Shown here piece after piece: positions 35,896-44,730 of a stretch of 51,453 nucleotides of DNA. This DNA comes from Clostridia bacterium. Lineage in GTDB: Bacteria > Bacillota > Clostridia > Christensenellales > Aristaeellaceae. Each line of letters begins with the position of its first letter. The first letter of the stretch is position 1. The notes beneath the pieces are model-generated. The model worked only from the letters and a program-made list of their open reading frames with translations, made no database searches and had not been told where the DNA came from. The stretch is from the NCBI GenBank assembly GCA_017512905.1, contig JAFWEL010000097.1, forward strand, positions 1 through 51,453. Reading direction: 5' to 3'. Both the position numbers and the translations under genes were made by a program.

Positions 35896-37212
35896 TCAGT
35901 CGTCCAGCAGCTCGGGGTGGGTTTCGATCTCGTATTCGTTCCTCCAGTCCTCCATCTGCTTTTCCAGCTCCAGGGTCTGGTAGTAGTACAGCGCGGAGGC
36001 GTTGAGGGCGCTGCGCTCCTCGGCGGTCAGCTGGTGAGGGCCGGCGGGGATGTCGGAGGCGTAGTAGAGGATGTGTATGCCCATGTCCGTCAGGACGGGT
36101 CCCGAGGTGTCGCCGGGCTTTTCCAGCTTCCCGACGGCCTCCAGGAATTCACCGGGCCAGTTCTTCGAATCCGGATGGATGGGATAGCCGCCCTTGTCCA
36201 GGTTCTGCTCGTTTTTATCGGTGGAATACTTGTTGATGATGGAATTGAAGTCGATGCCCGCGTCGATCTCGGCGTTGATGGCGTCCACGGTTTCCCGGAC
36301 CAGCGGCAGGGCCAGCGCCTTCCGCTTGTCCGCATAGGCCTGTTGGGCGGACTTCAGGGCTTCCAGCGCTTCGTCATATTGGGCCCGGGGTTCGGCCACG
36401 TCGTCCCAGCTGTCGCCGGAGAGTGCGGCCTCGGTGACCTTCTGGATCGCGTCGGCCACGGCCCGCGCCGCCTCGTTGACGTGGGCGTTCTCGTTCCTCA
36501 GGCCCCGGGTCACTTCATCGGGGTAGTCCAGCAGCACCTGCTGGATGGCACGGTAGCCCGCCGGGGTGTAGAAGGCTTCGTTTTGATTTGCCAGAATTTC
36601 CTGCTCGTAAAGATCCAGGTCGTTTTCGTAGCGCTGCCGGTCGGGCAGCAGGAATTCGGCCTCGTAGTATTTCTCAACCATGTCCTCGGTGAGGGTCATG
36701 TTGGGGCAGAACAGCTCCACCGCCCGGTGGCGGCGCTCGTTGGCCTTCAATTCCTCGAAGATGGCGTCTGAGGTATAGCCCTGCTCCTGCATGAACTCGG
36801 TCACCTGCTCCTCGGTGAAGCCCTGGTCGGGCTGCTGCTGGGCCTGCTGCCAGAGGCCCTGCCACATGGCCTCGTACTGGCTCATCGCCGTGGCCCGGAG
36901 GGTCTCCTCCTCCTCGTCGGTGAAGCTGTTTTGTCCCGCGTCCCGCAGCTTCATCTCGATCAGGCCCACGCCGATGAAGCGCTGTATGGTCTCATCCCGC
37001 TGCCGAAGCTTTTCCTCGTCCGTCAGGTATTCCTGGGACAGCATTTCCGACAGGGTGACGTCCGTCTCCACGGCGCTTTCCAGCTGGCTTTTCGTGAAGG
37101 TCACATCCCCCACCCGCACCACGACGGGGTCCTCCCCGGCCTCCGCCAGCGCCGGACACAGCCCCATCGCCAGCAACAGCGCGGCCAGCGCAACGCAGCG
37201 CACTCTGTTCAT
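35896..37212 (-). CDS. PrsA/SurA-like peptidyl-prolyl isomerase foldase
   Basis: A 438-residue exported chaperone. The signal peptide ends PALAEA (about 1-23). A SurA/PrsA-type helical N-domain follows (VRVGDVTFTKSQLESAVE, IGVGLIEMKLRDAG). The parvulin (rotamase) domain begins at YRAIQQVLLDYP, is interrupted by a long helical insert (about 265-345) and finishes with FNSIINKYSTDKNEQNLDKGGYPI and LEKPGDTSGPVLTDMGIHILYYAS. No lipobox Cys is present, unlike Bacillus PrsA. The ATG at 37212 follows AAAGGTGG by 8 nt; the GTG at 37224 overlaps that site. It lies first in a two-gene operon with the giant protein. Confidence 0.87.
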   Translation of the reverse strand: MNRVRCVALAALLLAMGLCPALAEAGEDPVVVRVGDVTFTKSQLESAVETDVTLSEMLSQEYLTDEEKLRQRDETIQRFIGVGLIEMKLRDAGQNSFTDEEEETLRATAMSQYEAMWQGLWQQAQQQPDQGFTEEQVTEFMQEQGYTSDAIFEELKANERRHRAVELFCPNMTLTEDMVEKYYEAEFLLPDRQRYENDLDLYEQEILANQNEAFYTPAGYRAIQQVLLDYPDEVTRGLRNENAHVNEAARAVADAIQKVTEAALSGDSWDDVAEPRAQYDEALEALKSAQQAYADKRKALALPLVRETVDAINAEIDAGIDFNSIINKYSTDKNEQNLDKGGYPIHPDSKNWPGEFLEAVGKLEKPGDTSGPVLTDMGIHILYYASDIPAGPHQLTAEERSALNASALYYYQTLELEKQMEDWRNEYEIETHPELLDD

Positions 37213-37367
37213 CCCATAGCCCACCTTTCCAATGCCGCCGCCGGCGGTATGATGACATTAATCAGATGTAGTATAGCAGGTATTTGAACGGATTTCGACA
37301 GTCGTCTACAAAAAGCCACAATTAATCCGATATATTACCTATTTTTATTTTTTGGGTCATCTTTGCC

Positions 37368-37682: not shown

Positions 37683-38933
37683 TTAAAGCGCGCCGTTCAT
37701 GTTTTCCAGCGTGTCGATCACGACGACGCAATCCTCCCGGACGTTCTGCATCACGAGCTTCATGATGTTCTCCGGCAGGGCCACGCAGCCGCCCGTATAG
37801 GGCTTGCTGGGGCCGAAGCAGTGCAGGAAGATGGCGGAGCCCCGGCCGGGGGTGCCGTCCTCGTTGAAGCTGATGTTCAGGCAATACTGGTACTGATACT
37901 CGTAATCGACGATGTGCTCGCTGTCATCCATGGCCAGCTCGGGGCAATCGTTGATGTTCACCATCTCATTGTAGTGGTAATCGGGGTCGCCGGACCAGTA
38001 GATGTCGTCGTCCACCTGGACATAGGGGATGGCGCAGCCGGGGTCGGCGGCGATGCCGAAGGCCCTGTTGAAGCGGTATACGCCCACGGGGGTCTGGCCG
38101 CAGCCCTCCACGTGGTCCGCATCCAGGCACAGGCCGTTCTTGCCCACGAAGCCGGGGGTGGAGAGGATCTGCTTCCAGTTGCCGTCCCCGTCCTTCTGGT
38201 GCATCGAGATGCTGGCGGTGGTCCGGTCCATGGCCATGGCGGCCACCACGAACAGCTGGTCGGCGTCCTGGGCGGCAGGCAGGCTGGCCACCCATTCCGG
38301 GGAGTCCACCACCGGCTGGAGGTCGGCATGCAGCCCGTTGTCCGCCGGGGCGGGCTGGTCATCCATCGGCTCATAGGTGATGGCGTTGTCGGTGGCGTAG
38401 AGGTTGATCAGTTCGTCGGCGGCCTCCTCGGTGATCGCCTGGCCGTCCTGAAGGCAGATCGCCTCGGCGTTGTCGCCGTCGGGACCGTGGAAGGGCTGGT
38501 AGGTGTCCAGCTTCGTGACCGGCTCCAGCGCCCCGTCCGCGGCGCGGTAGACCTCGTAGTGGCCCTCGCCGGACAGGCGGGAAAAGTGGGTCAGCGTGTG
38601 GGCCTCCGGGTTGGCGTAGAAGATGTCGCCGCCCGCGCCGCCGGCCTCCAGCACCGGCTTGGCCGCGCCGTTGTCATACAGATAGACCACCGCCTTGTCC
38701 TCGGCGGTGATGAACGCCTCCCGGGTGGTGGAAACCAGCAGCACCGGCACGCCGTCGCCGTTGATGTCCACGAAGGCATGGTAGGGGTATTCGGCGGTCA
38801 CGGCCTTGTCGGCCAGCACGTCCATGTACCAGTCGCTGTCCGCGCCCTCGGCCATACCCGCCTCGGCCACGGCGGCGGTCATCGCCATCATCGCGATGAG
38901 CATCGCCAGCACCAGAATCAGCAGCTTCTTCAT
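37683..38933 (-). CDS. Secreted L,D-transpeptidase (YkuD domain)
   Basis: A 416-residue exported enzyme. The signal peptide ends AAVAEA. The first half (about 25-200) is an unassigned domain with FG-GAP-like wording (YHAFVDINGDGVPVLLVST, IFYANPEAHTLTHFSRL). The C-terminal YkuD domain has GFVGKNGLCLDADHVEGCGQTPVGVYRF and the catalytic HCFGPSKPYTGGCVALP (nucleophile Cys in GGC). It should act on cell-wall peptides, like the enzyme at 4732. Two ATGs stand in tandem; the second (38933) is 7 nt after AAGGAGG, the first only 4. It may form 3-3 cross-links or cleave them. Confidence 0.88.
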   Translation of the reverse strand: MKKLLILVLAMLIAMMAMTAAVAEAGMAEGADSDWYMDVLADKAVTAEYPYHAFVDINGDGVPVLLVSTTREAFITAEDKAVVYLYDNGAAKPVLEAGGAGGDIFYANPEAHTLTHFSRLSGEGHYEVYRAADGALEPVTKLDTYQPFHGPDGDNAEAICLQDGQAITEEAADELINLYATDNAITYEPMDDQPAPADNGLHADLQPVVDSPEWVASLPAAQDADQLFVVAAMAMDRTTASISMHQKDGDGNWKQILSTPGFVGKNGLCLDADHVEGCGQTPVGVYRFNRAFGIAADPGCAIPYVQVDDDIYWSGDPDYHYNEMVNINDCPELAMDDSEHIVDYEYQYQYCLNISFNEDGTPGRGSAIFLHCFGPSKPYTGGCVALPENIMKLVMQNVREDCVVVIDTLENMNGAL

Positions 38934-38975
38934 CATGATTCCTCCTTTGCCGCACAGGCGGCGTCAATAAGCCAC

Positions 38976-39034: not shown

Positions 39035-41215
39035 TTACGGCATGTAACCCCGCTCGATCGCGACCACCTTGCCGCCCTCGATGCGCACGGTGGTGTTGTA
39101 CTGATCGAAGGTGTCATACCGAGCGGCCATCATGGCGTCCACCATGCCCTCGTAATCCGCCTTCACCGGATCAGCCTCGATATCGGAGCTGTCGGTGTAG
39201 GTGGCGGAGGGATCGACCTCCAGCGTGGTCACGCCGCGATCCGTGAAGGCGGAGATGTCGTCGTCGCCGCAGAAGCGCCACAGGTCGCCCTCTTCCACGG
39301 GATCCAGGTCGATGCCGCCCTTGAGGAGGCCGCCGTTGATCTGCACCTTGTCGCCGATCTCGATGGTTTCGATCACCACGGTCTCGCCGTTGACGACGAT
39401 GGAATCACCGGCCTTCAGGCTTTCCAGCTCGTTGATGTCGTACATGTCCTCGCTGAAGACGTGCACCGCGTTCATGTAAGTGCCGGAGGCGCCCTTCATC
39501 ACGTCGCCGCGGTTGAAGGCCACCGGATAGATGCCGTCCTCCAGGTGGTTGACGTCCATCCCGCGGTCCAGGGGCGCGACGGTCTTGGGCTCGTTGGCCG
39601 CGGCGGAATCGAAGCTCACCACGTTGCTCAGCCACTTTTCGCCGGTCTCGTCGACCACCGCCATGGCGGCGAAGTTCAGGTTGCCCTCGCCCCAGGCGTT
39701 GGCGGCGCGGAAGCTGCCGGAGACGCTGTTGGCGGAATCGGCCTTCAGCTTTTCGCCGTCGATGACCATCGTCAGGTTGTCCTTGCTGAAATCGGCGTTG
39801 TCGCCGAAGGTCAGCAGCAGCGCGTTGAACATGCAGTCCTCGCTGCCCATGTTGTACAGCGACCAGCTGTAGGTCGTCACGTCGCTGTCCGCCGCCTCAT
39901 CGGTGGAGGGGGTCACGGTCAGCACCAGGTTCACCGGGGTGTCCAGGCCGCTCTGGGTCATGGCGGCGTCGCTGGTCTCCAGCCAGGCGTTGACCAGGGC
40001 GTCCACGTCCGCGGGACGCACGCTGCCCTTCTGGAAGGTCAGGCCGTGGGCCTCGTCAAAGCCGGTGAAGGCGGTGTCCAGCTTCTTGCCGTAGATGCCG
40101 TCAAAGCCGCCGGCGTCGTAGCCCACCTGCTTGAGCATCTGCTGGATGGCGCGCACGGCCTCGCCGCGGTCGCCGTAGTCGATCACCTCGCCGGGCTCGA
40201 CGGTCTCGTGCTGCTCGAAGCCGCAGCCACGGCACACGCGCATGCGCTCGCCGGCCTCGGCGCGGGTCATTTCCTTCACGGTCTCCCAGGGGCCGAAGTC
40301 GTGCTCCAGGTCCTCCAGGGTCTGGGGCCAGCCGATGCCGTCGGGGTTCAGGCCGCGGTCCTGCTGGTACTTCATCAGGGCCTTCTCGGAGCCGCCGCCG
40401 AAGATGCCGTCGGCGCCGCCGGCGTTCAGGTAATTCTGCTCCACCAGCAGCTGCTGCATGTGGCGCACGGCGTCGCCGCGGTCGCCCCGGCGCAGGGTGC
40501 CCTCGGGATCATAGCTCTGGGCCTTGGTGGTATAGCCGCAGTTCTTGCAGACCTGGGCGCGCTGGCCGGCGGAATGGTCGGTGGCCTCGACGGTCACCTG
40601 CCACTCGTAATCGTGGGGCAGCATGTCCATCGCCCGGGTGTCCACCTTGTTGCAGACCTTGCAGACCCGCTCCTTCTCGCCCTTGGCGGTGCAGGTGGGC
40701 TCCTTGGTCACGGTCCAGTTGCCATACTGATGGTCGGCGTAGAAGCGCTCGGACTCCACCTCGCCGCAGTTCTTGCAGGTGCGCTGGCGGGTGCCCTTTA
40801 CGGTGCAGGTGGCCGCCTTGGTCACCTTCCAGCTGCCCCAGCTGTGGCCGGTCTTCTTAACGGTCTCCCGCTGCGTTTCGCCGCAGTATTTGCAGGTGCG
40901 CTCGCGGGTGCCGCTGTGGGTGCAGGTGGCCTTCTTGACGGTGTGCCAGCTGCCCCACTTGTGGGGGCAGGTGTCGCTGAGGTACTTGGCCTGGACCCAG
41001 CCGTAGCGGCACTCATAGAAGCCGTCCACATAATCGGTGATGGTCAGGGGATGGCCGACATGCAGCTGCATGGTGACGCGGGAATGCTTGTTCGGGTCCT
41101 GGTAGGCGTTGCAGTCCTTCTTGACATACATCGTCCAGGTGGATGCCGCCACAGCGGGCACGGCCAGCGCCACGATGAGCGCCAGCGCAAAGACAGCCAT
41201 TGCTATCCTTTTCAT
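39035..41215 (-). CDS. Secreted SH3 / Cys-repeat / peptidoglycan-binding protein
   Basis: A 726-residue exported protein. Signal peptide 1-23 (ending VAA); bacterial SH3-like domain about 27-80; four Cys repeats about 84-232 with pattern H-x-W-xx-W...C...G...R-x-C-xx-C-G (the fourth has lost its first Cys); PG_binding_1 domain about 243-300; a fifth repeat about 304-335; a second PG_binding_1 about 345-395; a beta-rich domain about 425-545; and a C-terminal domain about 559-726 that is homologous to the protein at 41744. Together these say cell-wall attachment; the C-terminal domain is of unknown function. The ATG 41215 follows AAGGAGG by 8 nt, 14 bp after the upstream SH3 gene. Confidence 0.85.
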   Translation of the reverse strand: MKRIAMAVFALALIVALAVPAVAASTWTMYVKKDCNAYQDPNKHSRVTMQLHVGHPLTITDYVDGFYECRYGWVQAKYLSDTCPHKWGSWHTVKKATCTHSGTRERTCKYCGETQRETVKKTGHSWGSWKVTKAATCTVKGTRQRTCKNCGEVESERFYADHQYGNWTVTKEPTCTAKGEKERVCKVCNKVDTRAMDMLPHDYEWQVTVEATDHSAGQRAQVCKNCGYTTKAQSYDPEGTLRRGDRGDAVRHMQQLLVEQNYLNAGGADGIFGGGSEKALMKYQQDRGLNPDGIGWPQTLEDLEHDFGPWETVKEMTRAEAGERMRVCRGCGFEQHETVEPGEVIDYGDRGEAVRAIQQMLKQVGYDAGGFDGIYGKKLDTAFTGFDEAHGLTFQKGSVRPADVDALVNAWLETSDAAMTQSGLDTPVNLVLTVTPSTDEAADSDVTTYSWSLYNMGSEDCMFNALLLTFGDNADFSKDNLTMVIDGEKLKADSANSVSGSFRAANAWGEGNLNFAAMAVVDETGEKWLSNVVSFDSAAANEPKTVAPLDRGMDVNHLEDGIYPVAFNRGDVMKGASGTYMNAVHVFSEDMYDINELESLKAGDSIVVNGETVVIETIEIGDKVQINGGLLKGGIDLDPVEEGDLWRFCGDDDISAFTDRGVTTLEVDPSATYTDSSDIEADPVKADYEGMVDAMMAARYDTFDQYNTTVRIEGGKVVAIERGYMP

Positions 41216-41229
41216 TGTCATAACCTCCT

Positions 41230-41541
41230 TCAGTTCCAACAGCCTTCAGCGTACTTGGAGCAAACCCAGCCCTCGACGCTCTTCGTCTGGCTGACGGCCA
41301 CCTTGACCTTGGCCCAGTAATAGCCCCTGTCGTCCTTGACGATCTGCTTGCTGGAGACGGGGACCTCATCGAGATAGCCCAGGGTGGTGACCACGGGATA
41401 CTGTGTACCCGGGCCGGTGCGCACGTTGACGCCCTTGCCCAGGGAACGGACGAAGGGCCGCTTCTTTCCGCCGGTCACATTTCCCAGGGCATCCAGGTCC
41501 AGTTCCTCGATCCCCTGTTGGAAAAACAGCTTCTCTTCCAT
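41230..41541 (-). CDS. SH3-domain protein with double-glycine leader
   Basis: A 103-residue protein. The first 25 residues look like a bacteriocin-type leader: GIEELDLDALGNVTGG with GG at 24-25 and hydrophobic residues at -4 (V22), -7 (L19), -12 (L14) and -15 (I11), the pattern cut by C39 peptidase ABC exporters. The rest is an SH3b domain (GKGVNVRTGPGTQYPVVTTLGYLDEV ... GYYWAKV ... GWVCSKYAEGCWN). There is no Sec signal peptide. The start has AGGAGG 8 nt upstream. It is upstream of and co-transcribed with the 726-residue surface protein. No C39 exporter gene is in the window. Confidence 0.82.
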   Translation of the reverse strand: MEEKLFFQQGIEELDLDALGNVTGGKKRPFVRSLGKGVNVRTGPGTQYPVVTTLGYLDEVPVSSKQIVKDDRGYYWAKVKVAVSQTKSVEGWVCSKYAEGCWN

Positions 41542-41568
41542 AAGTTTGTCCTCCTGTTGATGGCTATT

Positions 41569-41743: not shown

Positions 41744-42367
41744 ATGAAGAAAATGATTTCCGCGCTGCTGGCGCTGGCCCTGATGCTGTGCGCCTTCGCG
41801 ATGGCCGAGGCCATCGTGCCCCAGTTCTCCTTCGACCCCAACGAGGGCACCTACCCCGCCGCCTTCAACCGGGACGAGATCAAGGACGGCAACCTGTATA
41901 ACGTCAAGCTGTACACCGAGGACAACTACGACATCGTGGACGTCTCCAGGATGGCCGTGGGCGACACCTTCGAGGCCGAGGGCAACACCATCACCATCGA
42001 GACCCTCGAGAAGGACGAGTTCGGCAACATCAACATCAACGGCGGCTTCGAGGCGGAAAACGGCTACACGCTGACCACCGAGGAGGACACCAACGGCTTT
42101 ACCACCACCGGCTACAACGACTTCTGCACCTATACCGAGCGCGGCACCTGCAACCTGGAGCTGGCCGAAAACGTGACCTTCACCGACAGCGCCGACATCG
42201 ACGCCGACGCCCTGCTCAACGGCAAGGAAGCCCTGACCGTCACCGGCATCGAGGCCGTCACCCAGGCCATCGCCGAAGCCCAGATCGACAGCTTCGACAG
42301 CCACAACACCGAAATCGTCATCCAGGACGGCAAGGTGGTTCAGATCAACCGGCGCTTTAACCCGTAA
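41744..42367 (+). CDS. Secreted protein of a novel domain shared with the 39035-41215 gene
   Basis: A 207-residue exported protein: signal peptide 1-20 (ending AMA), then one domain (about 30-207). It aligns over its whole length with the C-terminus of the 726-residue neighbour: TYPAAFNRDEI against IYPVAFNRGDV, YDIVDVSRMAVGDTF against YDINELESLKAGDSI, ITIETLE against VVIETIE, TFTDSADIDAD against TYTDSSDIEAD, and the end DSFDSHNTEIVIQDGKVVQINRRFNP against DTFDQYNTTVRIEGGKVVAIERGYMP. The family is unknown to me. The ATG 41744 follows AAGGAGG by 8 nt. It has its own TGTGACGC-box promoter and is divergent from the SH3 operon. Confidence 0.85.
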   Translation: MKKMISALLALALMLCAFAMAEAIVPQFSFDPNEGTYPAAFNRDEIKDGNLYNVKLYTEDNYDIVDVSRMAVGDTFEAEGNTITIETLEKDEFGNININGGFEAENGYTLTTEEDTNGFTTTGYNDFCTYTERGTCNLELAENVTFTDSADIDADALLNGKEALTVTGIEAVTQAIAEAQIDSFDSHNTEIVIQDGKVVQINRRFNP

Positions 42368-43402: not shown

Positions 43403-44686
43403 TCAGGCGTTTGCAAATCCTGCCTGCCCGGAACCCAGCAGGAAATGGTCGAAGCCGGTCGTCTCCAGGATCTCCCGGACCTCGTCGCTTACGCCGGTCA
43501 TCTCAAAATTGGCCTTGTCCTCCAGCGACTTGTACATCATCAGCAGGACGCGCAGGCCGGCGGAGGACACGTAGGGCATCCGGCTCACATCCACGTGAAT
43601 CGCCCGGATCCCGCTGCCGGCGTCCTGGAACCGCTTCAACAGCTCCGGCGCGGTGATGGTGTCCATGCGGCCCTGGATGGCCACCTGGAAGGTCCCGTCC
43701 CTGACCTCGCTGACGACCCTGAAGGGAAGGTTGGCCTCCGCCGGCGCGGGTTTCCCCGCCCCGCCTTGCGCCACGGTGAACTCCCAGAACATCATCTTCC
43801 GGAACACCTCCCGCACCGCCGGCTCCACCTGGGGATTCCCGTCCAGCGCGCCGAAATGCCCGGGCAGGTAGTCGGCCATGCAGACCTCCCGCAGCTCAAA
43901 GCCCATCCGCCGGATGAAATCCCTGACCTTGGCTTCATCGGGATCGAAGAACACGTTGTCGTTGAGCCTGACGTCCGCGGTGGTGGCGGCGGCGCGGTTG
44001 GTGACCGCCGCGTACATCGCGGTCAGCCGGGGATCGTGGTCCAGCGCGGCGGCGACGATCTCCTTGTCGTGGAGGAAATACGCCCGGTCCGTGACCACCC
44101 AGCTCCCGCCGTGCTTCTGGAGCAGGCGGCGGAGGTTGGAGAACACCGTCTCCAGCTCGGGCTGGTCGAAATACATCAGCAGCCCCTCGGTGGTCACGAG
44201 GAGGTTGCGGCTGGCTTCGGGCAGCGCGGCCTCCAGGGATTCGTAATTGGTCGCGTCCACGGCGCGATAGCCGACGGCTTCATGCCTTCCGACGATCGAC
44301 TCCACCGCGGGGCCCATGGCGTCGACCACCGCGGGAAGGTCGCAGCCCCGGTAAGCCCTCCCCTCCCGGGCCATGCGAATGCCCCGGGAGGTATAGCCGC
44401 AGGGCAGGTCCACGACCTGGCGGTCCGCCCTTTCCCCAATCAGCCGGTTCACCCCATAGAACCGGGATTCGATGAGTATGGTATACGCGGGGAAAAGCCG
44501 CTTGACCTGCTCGTGCATCTCCTTCGGCACGGGCTTGCTCGACATCTGGGCGCCGAAGGCCGGAAAGCCCAGCACGTCCAGAAGCCGCTGAGCGTCCTCG
44601 TCGCCCACGGCCGCGACCAGCTGAACGCAGGACTTCGCCGTGTTGAATACGGGATTGACAAGCTCCCTGAGCTCCTGATTGTCCAT
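43403..44686 (-). CDS. Methyltransferase (LCM-type) fused to a STAS domain
   Basis: A 427-residue cytoplasmic protein. Residues about 1-320 form a class I SAM-dependent methyltransferase of the leucine carboxyl methyltransferase/PPM family: VVDLPCGYTSRGI for SAM binding, GRAYRGCDLPAVVDAM, and NLLVTTEGLLMYFDQPELETVFSNL. Residues about 328-425 are a STAS domain (FQVAIQGRMDTITAPELL, IHVDVSRMPYVSSAGLRVLLMMY), keeping the Ser that SpoIIAA-like anti-anti-sigma factors have phosphorylated. The fusion suggests partner-switching control of methylation or the reverse. The ATG 44686 follows GGAGG by 5 nt. No kinase is adjacent. The target of methylation is unknown. Confidence 0.85.
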   Translation of the reverse strand: MDNQELRELVNPVFNTAKSCVQLVAAVGDEDAQRLLDVLGFPAFGAQMSSKPVPKEMHEQVKRLFPAYTILIESRFYGVNRLIGERADRQVVDLPCGYTSRGIRMAREGRAYRGCDLPAVVDAMGPAVESIVGRHEAVGYRAVDATNYESLEAALPEASRNLLVTTEGLLMYFDQPELETVFSNLRRLLQKHGGSWVVTDRAYFLHDKEIVAAALDHDPRLTAMYAAVTNRAAATTADVRLNDNVFFDPDEAKVRDFIRRMGFELREVCMADYLPGHFGALDGNPQVEPAVREVFRKMMFWEFTVAQGGAGKPAPAEANLPFRVVSEVRDGTFQVAIQGRMDTITAPELLKRFQDAGSGIRAIHVDVSRMPYVSSAGLRVLLMMYKSLEDKANFEMTGVSDEVREILETTGFDHFLLGSGQAGFANA

Positions 44687-44730
44687 AAATACCTCCATTC
44701 CATCTCATGGCAGGCCGTGCATCGCACGGC

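Follow-up and report, generated by a model that had tools for sequence, protein, structure and literature searches.

The window examined in this study is the whole 51,453-nucleotide stretch of contig JAFWEL010000097.1 from a Clostridia bacterium. Its reverse strand carries a small gene (hereafter the window gene), in which a double-glycine leader precedes an SH3 domain, and three further genes downstream:

41550..41555, reverse strand: AGGAGG, ribosome-binding-site-like, 5′ of the ATG, read from the 20 nt before the ATG
41541..41230, reverse strand: leader-SH3 ORF, ATG start, 103 codons (103 aa), TGA stop
41467..41541, reverse strand: double-glycine leader, 25 residues (M1-G25), kept in orthologs
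41233..41466, reverse strand: mature SH3b (SH3_3) domain, 78 aa, from Pfam match and structure model
41230-41232, reverse strand: TGA stop codon of the leader-SH3 ORF
39035..41221, reverse strand: Sec-type neighbour, 8 nt downstream (TGA to next ATG), signal peptide by eye
37683..38936, reverse strand: YkuD L,D-transpeptidase-like neighbour (23.6 bits, cut-off 23.4), wall-related context
35896..37224, reverse strand: neighbour with a PpiC-type peptidyl-prolyl isomerase domain, from a domain match, context

The neighbour at 39035..41221 has a weak SH3_3 match, below the cut-off, and PG_binding_1 in two stretches, and it probably forms one operon with the window gene in this genome. The original prediction regarded it as a Sec-exported partner. 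In the window, where the two genes lie 8 nt apart, the pairing stands; at the three orthologs of the window gene the neighbours are different ones, so the Sec-exported protein is not a conserved partner and the idea of a conserved pair was rejected. Two other window genes are recorded here as side observations. The divergent signal-peptide protein at 41744-42367 (forward strand) is homologous to the last 167 residues of 39035-41221 (reverse strand), with 34% identity over 178 columns (E 1e-27), and at 43403-44698 (reverse strand) a methyltransferase-like region (sub-cutoff LCM and Methyltransf_25 matches) is fused to a C-terminal STAS domain.

The double-glycine leader and its SH3 cargo

The window leader ends in G24-G25 (positions -2 and -1) and has I, L, L and V at positions -15, -12, -7 and -4, respectively, which bears out the hydrophobic pattern originally predicted and complies with the leader rule in print (-4/-7/-12/-15; PMC7018657). 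The predicted SH3b nature of the cargo is likewise confirmed, as Pfam SH3_3 (PF08239) matches residues 37-97 at 39.0 bits, above the cut-off of 27. The mature protein has a computed pI of 9.7, and its cysteines are Cys94 and Cys101. In an AlphaFold2 model built from 7 sequences, pLDDT is below 50 over residues 1-26, while the ten-residue means for residues 31 to 100 are 81-90, i.e. a confident barrel follows after about residue 30. With this model, Foldseek returned no match at E 0.001; the top matches were bacterial SH3 structures from Clostridium perfringens (2krs, E 5.7e-3; 2kt8, E 1.5e-2).

Chance was assessed with a leader HMM trained on the family alignment after removal of the window gene and of both its orthologs present there. 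The window leader scored 4.4 bits, the highest of 650 frames in the window, and this score was matched or beaten by 4 of 32,500 shuffled frames. The window leader taken alone is weak evidence, and the case for a real leader stands on conservation; the observation as a whole is confirmed.

The same genome contains six leader-SH3 genes detected with the full-length profile at E 2.8e-26 or better, namely: C134 (the window gene), C160, C11, C107, C41 and C70. A direct search of the genome gave three of them besides the window gene, and profiles added the rest. The search for further proteins with this leader, proposed at the outset, thus yielded five genes by profile and additionally C203, whose cargo is SH3-like by eye and has no SH3 match in Pfam. 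Three orthologs of the window gene (67-72% identity) all keep the leader; their genomes are MAGs of uncultured Clostridiales bacterium, isolates RUG11052, RUG103 and RUG12338, a label that we take to denote rumen genomes. Leaderless homologs had been named in advance as evidence against the leader, and the orthologs and paralogs that were read all retain it.

The 64 loci picked for holding family matches or exporters contain 47 leader-bearing ORFs. One has 742 aa; the other 46 are short (89-106 aa), and one of these is truncated at the end of its contig. The leaders read have 18-30 aa and the mature proteins 66-78 residues. Thirty-seven family proteins, which entered the alignment as leader or family search matches, have invariant L-12, G-2 and G-1; position -7 is L or M in 37/37, position -4 is V or I in 36/37, and position +1 is K in 31/37. 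SH3_3 is found in 34 of the 37 at E 0.01 or better, and Pfam at E 0.01 detects nothing in these members besides SH3 and leader families. Two orthologs excepted, the aligned proteins are 26-43% identical to the window protein. Five of the 46 short ORFs belong to the VHDLRNF type, of which the one member tested had no SH3 match in Pfam. The structure models of this member are poor (66.5 for the best, 39-49 for the other four), and its top Foldseek matches are nearly all SH3.

For the window gene and its orthologs (4 sequences), dN/dS is 0.25 in the leader and 0.16 in the mature part, i.e. both parts are under purifying selection. Across five subfamilies of 4 to 17 sequences each, the range is 0.18-0.44 for leaders and 0.16-0.48 for mature parts, the mature part being looser than the leader in two of them (NIHELPG and VHDLRNF). 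The idea of a constant leader in front of a varying SH3 domain holds between subfamilies; within them, by percent identity, the mature part is the better conserved in three and about equal to the leader in the other two. By these estimates, leader and mature parts are both constrained, and no subfamily resembles a fast-changing weapon.

Association with a C39 exporter

The genome of the window encodes the C39 peptidase ABC exporter on which the original prediction depended. It scores 914.1 bits against TIGR03796 (NHLM_micro_ABC1; cut-off 853.3), the Cys, His and Asp of the C39 site are seen by eye in its N-terminal C39 domain (L005:9543 onward), and the PDB entries of PCAT1 match it at 332-336 bits. 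Together with the leader, its presence supports the proposal that the window protein is a likely C39 substrate. The assembly contains the exporter region twice, on contigs that are 99.99% identical over 12.1 kb. Directly upstream of ABC1 is a 148-aa HlyD-like protein that scores far under the TIGR03794 cut-off; all three HlyD-like proteins tested are short (137-148 aa; 26.7-33.3 bits, cut-off 156.2) and are not full HlyD-type fusion proteins by this measure. ABC2 (TIGR03797) was not found above its cut-off in this genome, where the best score of 357.4 belongs to ABC1 itself and the assembly is broken: one exporter contig stops about 600 bases past ABC1, and in the other copy an IS481-type transposase follows ABC1. 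This transposase (L160:8086-9226 on C124; 189.9 bits, below the cut-off of 224) occupies the position that ABC2 has in relatives; the second copy of the region is at the end of L005 (C115).

In genome G015, ABC1 is followed by ABC2 (725.6 bits, cut-off 709.4), a 164-aa protein without a family match and a response regulator (PF00072). Judged by ORF starts, the gene order in G014, G019 and G026 is like that of the G015 operon. Separately, a gene for a clostripain-family protease is found near the exporter operon of G002.

Of the 17 genomes that have both the exporter and leader genes, 7 (G002, G007, G012, G014, G015, G019 and G026) carry a leader gene immediately upstream of the exporter operon or adjacent to it, compared to 0.07 expected by random placement. 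The linked gene is of the VHDLRNF type in three of the seven cases; for the SH3 type alone, linkage is seen in 4 of 14 genomes (G007, G012, G014 and G015), with 0.07 again expected. These expectations rest on per-genome gene counts made by hand, of which those of G004, G007 and G008 are off by one, leaving the order of magnitude unaffected. In G007 the contig breaks off past the HlyD-like gene, and the presence of the exporter there is therefore presumed. The fullest arrangement is found in G014, with a run of leader-SH3 (the ortholog of the window gene, in first place), leader-VHDLRNF, leader-SH3, a short HlyD-like gene, ABC1 and ABC2. In G015, the ortholog of the window gene lies beside the same exporter operon. 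Neither the third ortholog (in G010) nor the window gene itself is linked to an exporter, and in the genome of the window none of the leader-SH3 genes was observed next to the exporter.

The exporter is present in 19 of the 28 genomes of the genus. Leader-SH3 or SH3-like genes are found in 17 of these 19 genomes versus 1 of the 9 exporter-less ones (Fisher p 1.2e-4). If the three genomes with only the VHDLRNF type are counted as lacking such genes, the figures become 14/19 versus 1/9 (p 0.0036); both p values ignore shared ancestry, as they carry no phylogenetic correction. The eight exporter-less absences hold among the matches listed, which extend to about E 5e-13, and the leader-only profile at E 0.1 missed the G024 gene. 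This gene (L149:2196-2507, reverse strand, C35) is an intact leader-SH3 gene in a genome that is 88% complete and in which no C39 exporter was detected. Its counterpart in exporter-less G016 (L151, C35) was not counted as leader-SH3 because of a stop codon in the leader region, and the state of the gene in G016 and G024 may reflect decay after loss of the exporter. Similarly, a leader-only match in exporter-less G023 (L179) was not counted, as the ORF stops soon after GG. Conversely, in G021 and G022 the exporter is present and no leader-SH3 gene was detected, and G031 (75% complete) has leader proteins and no detected C39 exporter.

SH3 domains in the genus are also found on proteins with Sec-type signal peptides. 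These include multi-SH3 proteins without a GG leader in G016 (L152, C10) and G021 (L029, C46). In exporter-less G016, the small SH3 frames encode proteins with a Sec-type signal peptide and two SH3 domains; exporter-less G024 has three small SH3 frames, of which two are fragments of such proteins at contig ends. Thus, the Sec route is evidently usable for an SH3 domain. Judged from the N-termini, the genus uses two routes, with single SH3 domains on the GG leader and multi-SH3 proteins on Sec, which poses the question of why the single domains go via C39.

A proposed route to the cell wall

The nature of the cargo was surveyed with a leader-only profile over 24 genomes. Leaders of the same kind precede LysM domains in G033 (of the four genes read, three were Pfam-tested) and G044 (one gene, Pfam-tested), and by eye in G031. 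SH3-like cargo, below the Pfam cut-off, occurs beside the LysM type in G031 and G044. The leader of one LysM precursor passes the Pfam type-A lantibiotic cut-off (24.7 vs 21.7). SH3b and LysM are different folds that have peptidoglycan binding in common. As both would bind peptidoglycan, the wall is the most likely site of action.

We consider it likely that the leader-SH3 genes encode an exported, non-lytic family of wall-bound proteins that bypasses Sec, with the leader cut by the C39 exporter and the SH3b domain binding peptidoglycan. This reading draws on the leader, the domain, the exporter, the family, the linkage in relatives, the co-occurrence and the purifying selection, all of them features of sequence. 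Points against it are the lack of linkage and of a detected ABC2 in the genome of the window, the relatives in which a leader gene or the exporter was detected alone, and the use of Sec-type signal peptides by other SH3 proteins of the genus. In PCAT transporters, three or four hydrophobic leader residues dock in a groove of the C39 domain, the GG lies in a narrow active site, and the cargo is unstructured in the cavity (PMC6959990, PMC6363468, PMC7018657); the docking residues described for PCAT1 and LahT match the positions of the window leader (PMC6959990, PMC6363468). From this fit and from the size of the cargo, we propose cleavage, export, folding outside and peptidoglycan binding. The precursor would dock by its leader in the genome's own C39-peptidase ABC exporter (NHLM_micro_ABC1/PCAT type), which would cut after GG at residue 25 to leave KKRPFVR as the start of the mature protein, and the 78-residue SH3b domain would cross unfolded. 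As to size, a comparison is offered by the microcin V transporter, which we take to be of the C39 type. In that system, unrelated small proteins of 26-66 residues are exported, and export is poor at 116 (PMC10231218). Once outside, the SH3b domain would fold, possibly with a Cys94-Cys101 disulfide, and bind peptidoglycan as a non-lytic wall protein, wall binding being assumed from the domain family. The bound wall would be the producer's own, which is the least certain step. The window protein would then be one of a genus-wide set, with LysM on the same kind of leader in sister lineages.

Of the two possibilities raised at the outset, a surface system or a killing system, the evidence favours the first. 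In a bacteriocin-like weapon, the exported SH3b domain would attach to the walls of competing cells and damage those cells, by itself or together with a partner. Leader and exporter are indeed of the bacteriocin type, there are several paralogs per genome, and endolysins often use SH3b for targeting (PMC11637818, PMC12634807). Even so, this reading is unlikely, as Pfam shows no lytic domain in the 37 family members, the mature parts are under purifying selection, the tested neighbours of exporter operons include no lytic or modification gene, the clostripain-family protease near that of G002 notwithstanding, and the sister lineages have LysM cargo.

An equally improbable alternative is that the small domains act as a shield or decoy, covering sites on the producer's peptidoglycan and blocking the lysins of phages or neighbours. 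It shares the wall-binding logic of the surface reading, and the diverged SH3b subfamilies together with the LysM alternatives could cover different sites; against it, a search of the phages and plasmids collections at E 0.01 found nothing similar to the window protein. A phage or plasmid origin of the window gene was rejected on the same result. Signalling, with the SH3 domain sensed outside the cell, would find a place for the response regulator after the G015 exporter operon and for the ORFs with a similar start at that place in G014, G019 and G026. Nevertheless, a folded domain of some 70 residues that binds the wall would be an odd signal, and the few neighbours tested for sensors gave one HisKA protein, near the G002 operon, which makes this reading very improbable. 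Finally, the SH3-like protein could be cytosolic and its GG leader fortuitous. The few high-scoring shuffled frames might point to this reading, but the genus-wide conservation, exporter linkage and exporter co-occurrence of the family contradict it, and it is almost certainly wrong.

Envelope proteins linked to C39 exporters are already known from other bacteria. MAM of Faecalibacterium duncaniae (PMC12184118) is, like leader-SH3, a GG-leader protein of a gut bacterium with V at -4; a PCAT gene is adjacent in most Faecalibacterium species, the mature protein is abundant in the envelope, and the authors use peptide data and modelling to argue for its export by the PCAT. MAM differs in its leader pattern and in a mature part predicted to form three helices, and SH3 does not figure in the main text of that paper. 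The EbfG1-4 proteins of Synechococcus elongatus (PMC9981879) are also small GG-motif proteins, whose secretion involves the C39-family PteB, and EbfG4 is located at the cell surface as well as within the matrix. Unlike leader-SH3, they are cyanobacterial, some are amyloid, and they are described as having no domain of known-function proteins.

CtA, the substrate of PCAT1 in Clostridium thermocellum (PMC6959990; PDB 6v9z), has a similar layout, with a 24-residue GG leader and a 66-residue cargo. Its leader aligns weakly with the family leader profile (E 0.14-0.28). CtA was rejected as an SH3 relative: the full-length profile did extend past the leader (E 0.13), whereas a profile of the leader plus 26 residues aligned the CtA leader alone, and we therefore claim no kinship beyond the leader. 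The NHLP/Nif11 precursors have the exporter family in common with leader-SH3 (TIGR03796, plus TIGR03797 in G015), and the motif at the end of their leaders is similar; in the published description, the TIGR03794/03796/03797 NHLM exporter accompanies long-leader precursors that give rise to modified peptides (PMC2887384). The long leaders of these precursors measure 66-85 aa in anaerobes (PMC4289311), versus 18-30 aa here, and their cores are variable, rich in Cys, Ser and Thr and meant for modification, whereas the leader-SH3 cargo is a domain. The window protein is not an NHLP/N11P precursor, given its 25-aa leader, its SH3 cargo and the lack of a maturase among the neighbours tested, and NCBIfam gave no nitrile-hydratase- or Nif11-like long-leader match for it or three of its paralogs.

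We found no description of GG-leader SH3b or LysM proteins in the literature searched (open-licence PMC papers). As far as these searches show, C39 cargo consisting of single peptidoglycan-binding modules, encoded by a set of several genes, is apparently new. We suggest, more tentatively, a C39 exporter devoted mainly to a lineage-specific library of such modules that would coat the producer's own wall, perhaps as a shield against lysins; we see this as a possible but doubtful extension. In genome mining, a C39 exporter is usually taken to indicate a bacteriocin or a modified peptide. If the surface reading is correct, the role of these exporters would widen to small domains that bind the wall, either SH3b or LysM, which would call for caution in naming such loci bacteriocin clusters, and the leader and exporter pair could be used for putting small proteins on the cell wall.

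Spread and further leader-bearing ORFs

The spread of the family was sampled in 391 Clostridia genomes, drawn evenly. At E 1e-9, a threshold that would miss divergent members such as those of G031 and G044, the full leader-SH3 profile matched in 9 genomes; among these, only the genome of the window has matches that start before profile position 21, i.e. that include the leader. The leader-only profile at E 0.001 matched in 3 of the 390 other genomes (G141, G238 and G399), and no SH3 was recognised by eye in the cargo of G141 and G238. A leader-LysM profile matched 214 of the 391, swamped by ordinary LysM repeats.

Several leader-bearing ORFs have other kinds of cargo. The 742-aa protein (L123:2740-4965, reverse strand; G001:C82), far larger than the remaining leader cargo, has a GG leader followed by a hydrophobic stretch, and its gene adjoins a leader-SH3 gene. 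It has no NCBIfam match at E 0.01 and only a sub-cutoff match in Pfam; relatives with similar starts are found in G012 (L190, L194 and L200). In G019 (C39), L186 1578 (reverse strand) encodes a leader of the same kind; its cargo, roughly 50 residues long, contains two CxxC pairs and by eye resembles a zinc ribbon. Tandem leader proteins in G033 (C30; L199 2154 and 1575, reverse strand) have the common cargo start HPFE.CFGD, which by eye is unlike SH3 and unlike LysM. At the small end, the leader of L192 1486 (forward strand; G019:C1) is followed by four residues, WELE, and those of L183 (G021:C56) and L184 (G024:C26) have 18-19-residue tails; these short-tailed ORFs are possibly small peptides using the same exporter.
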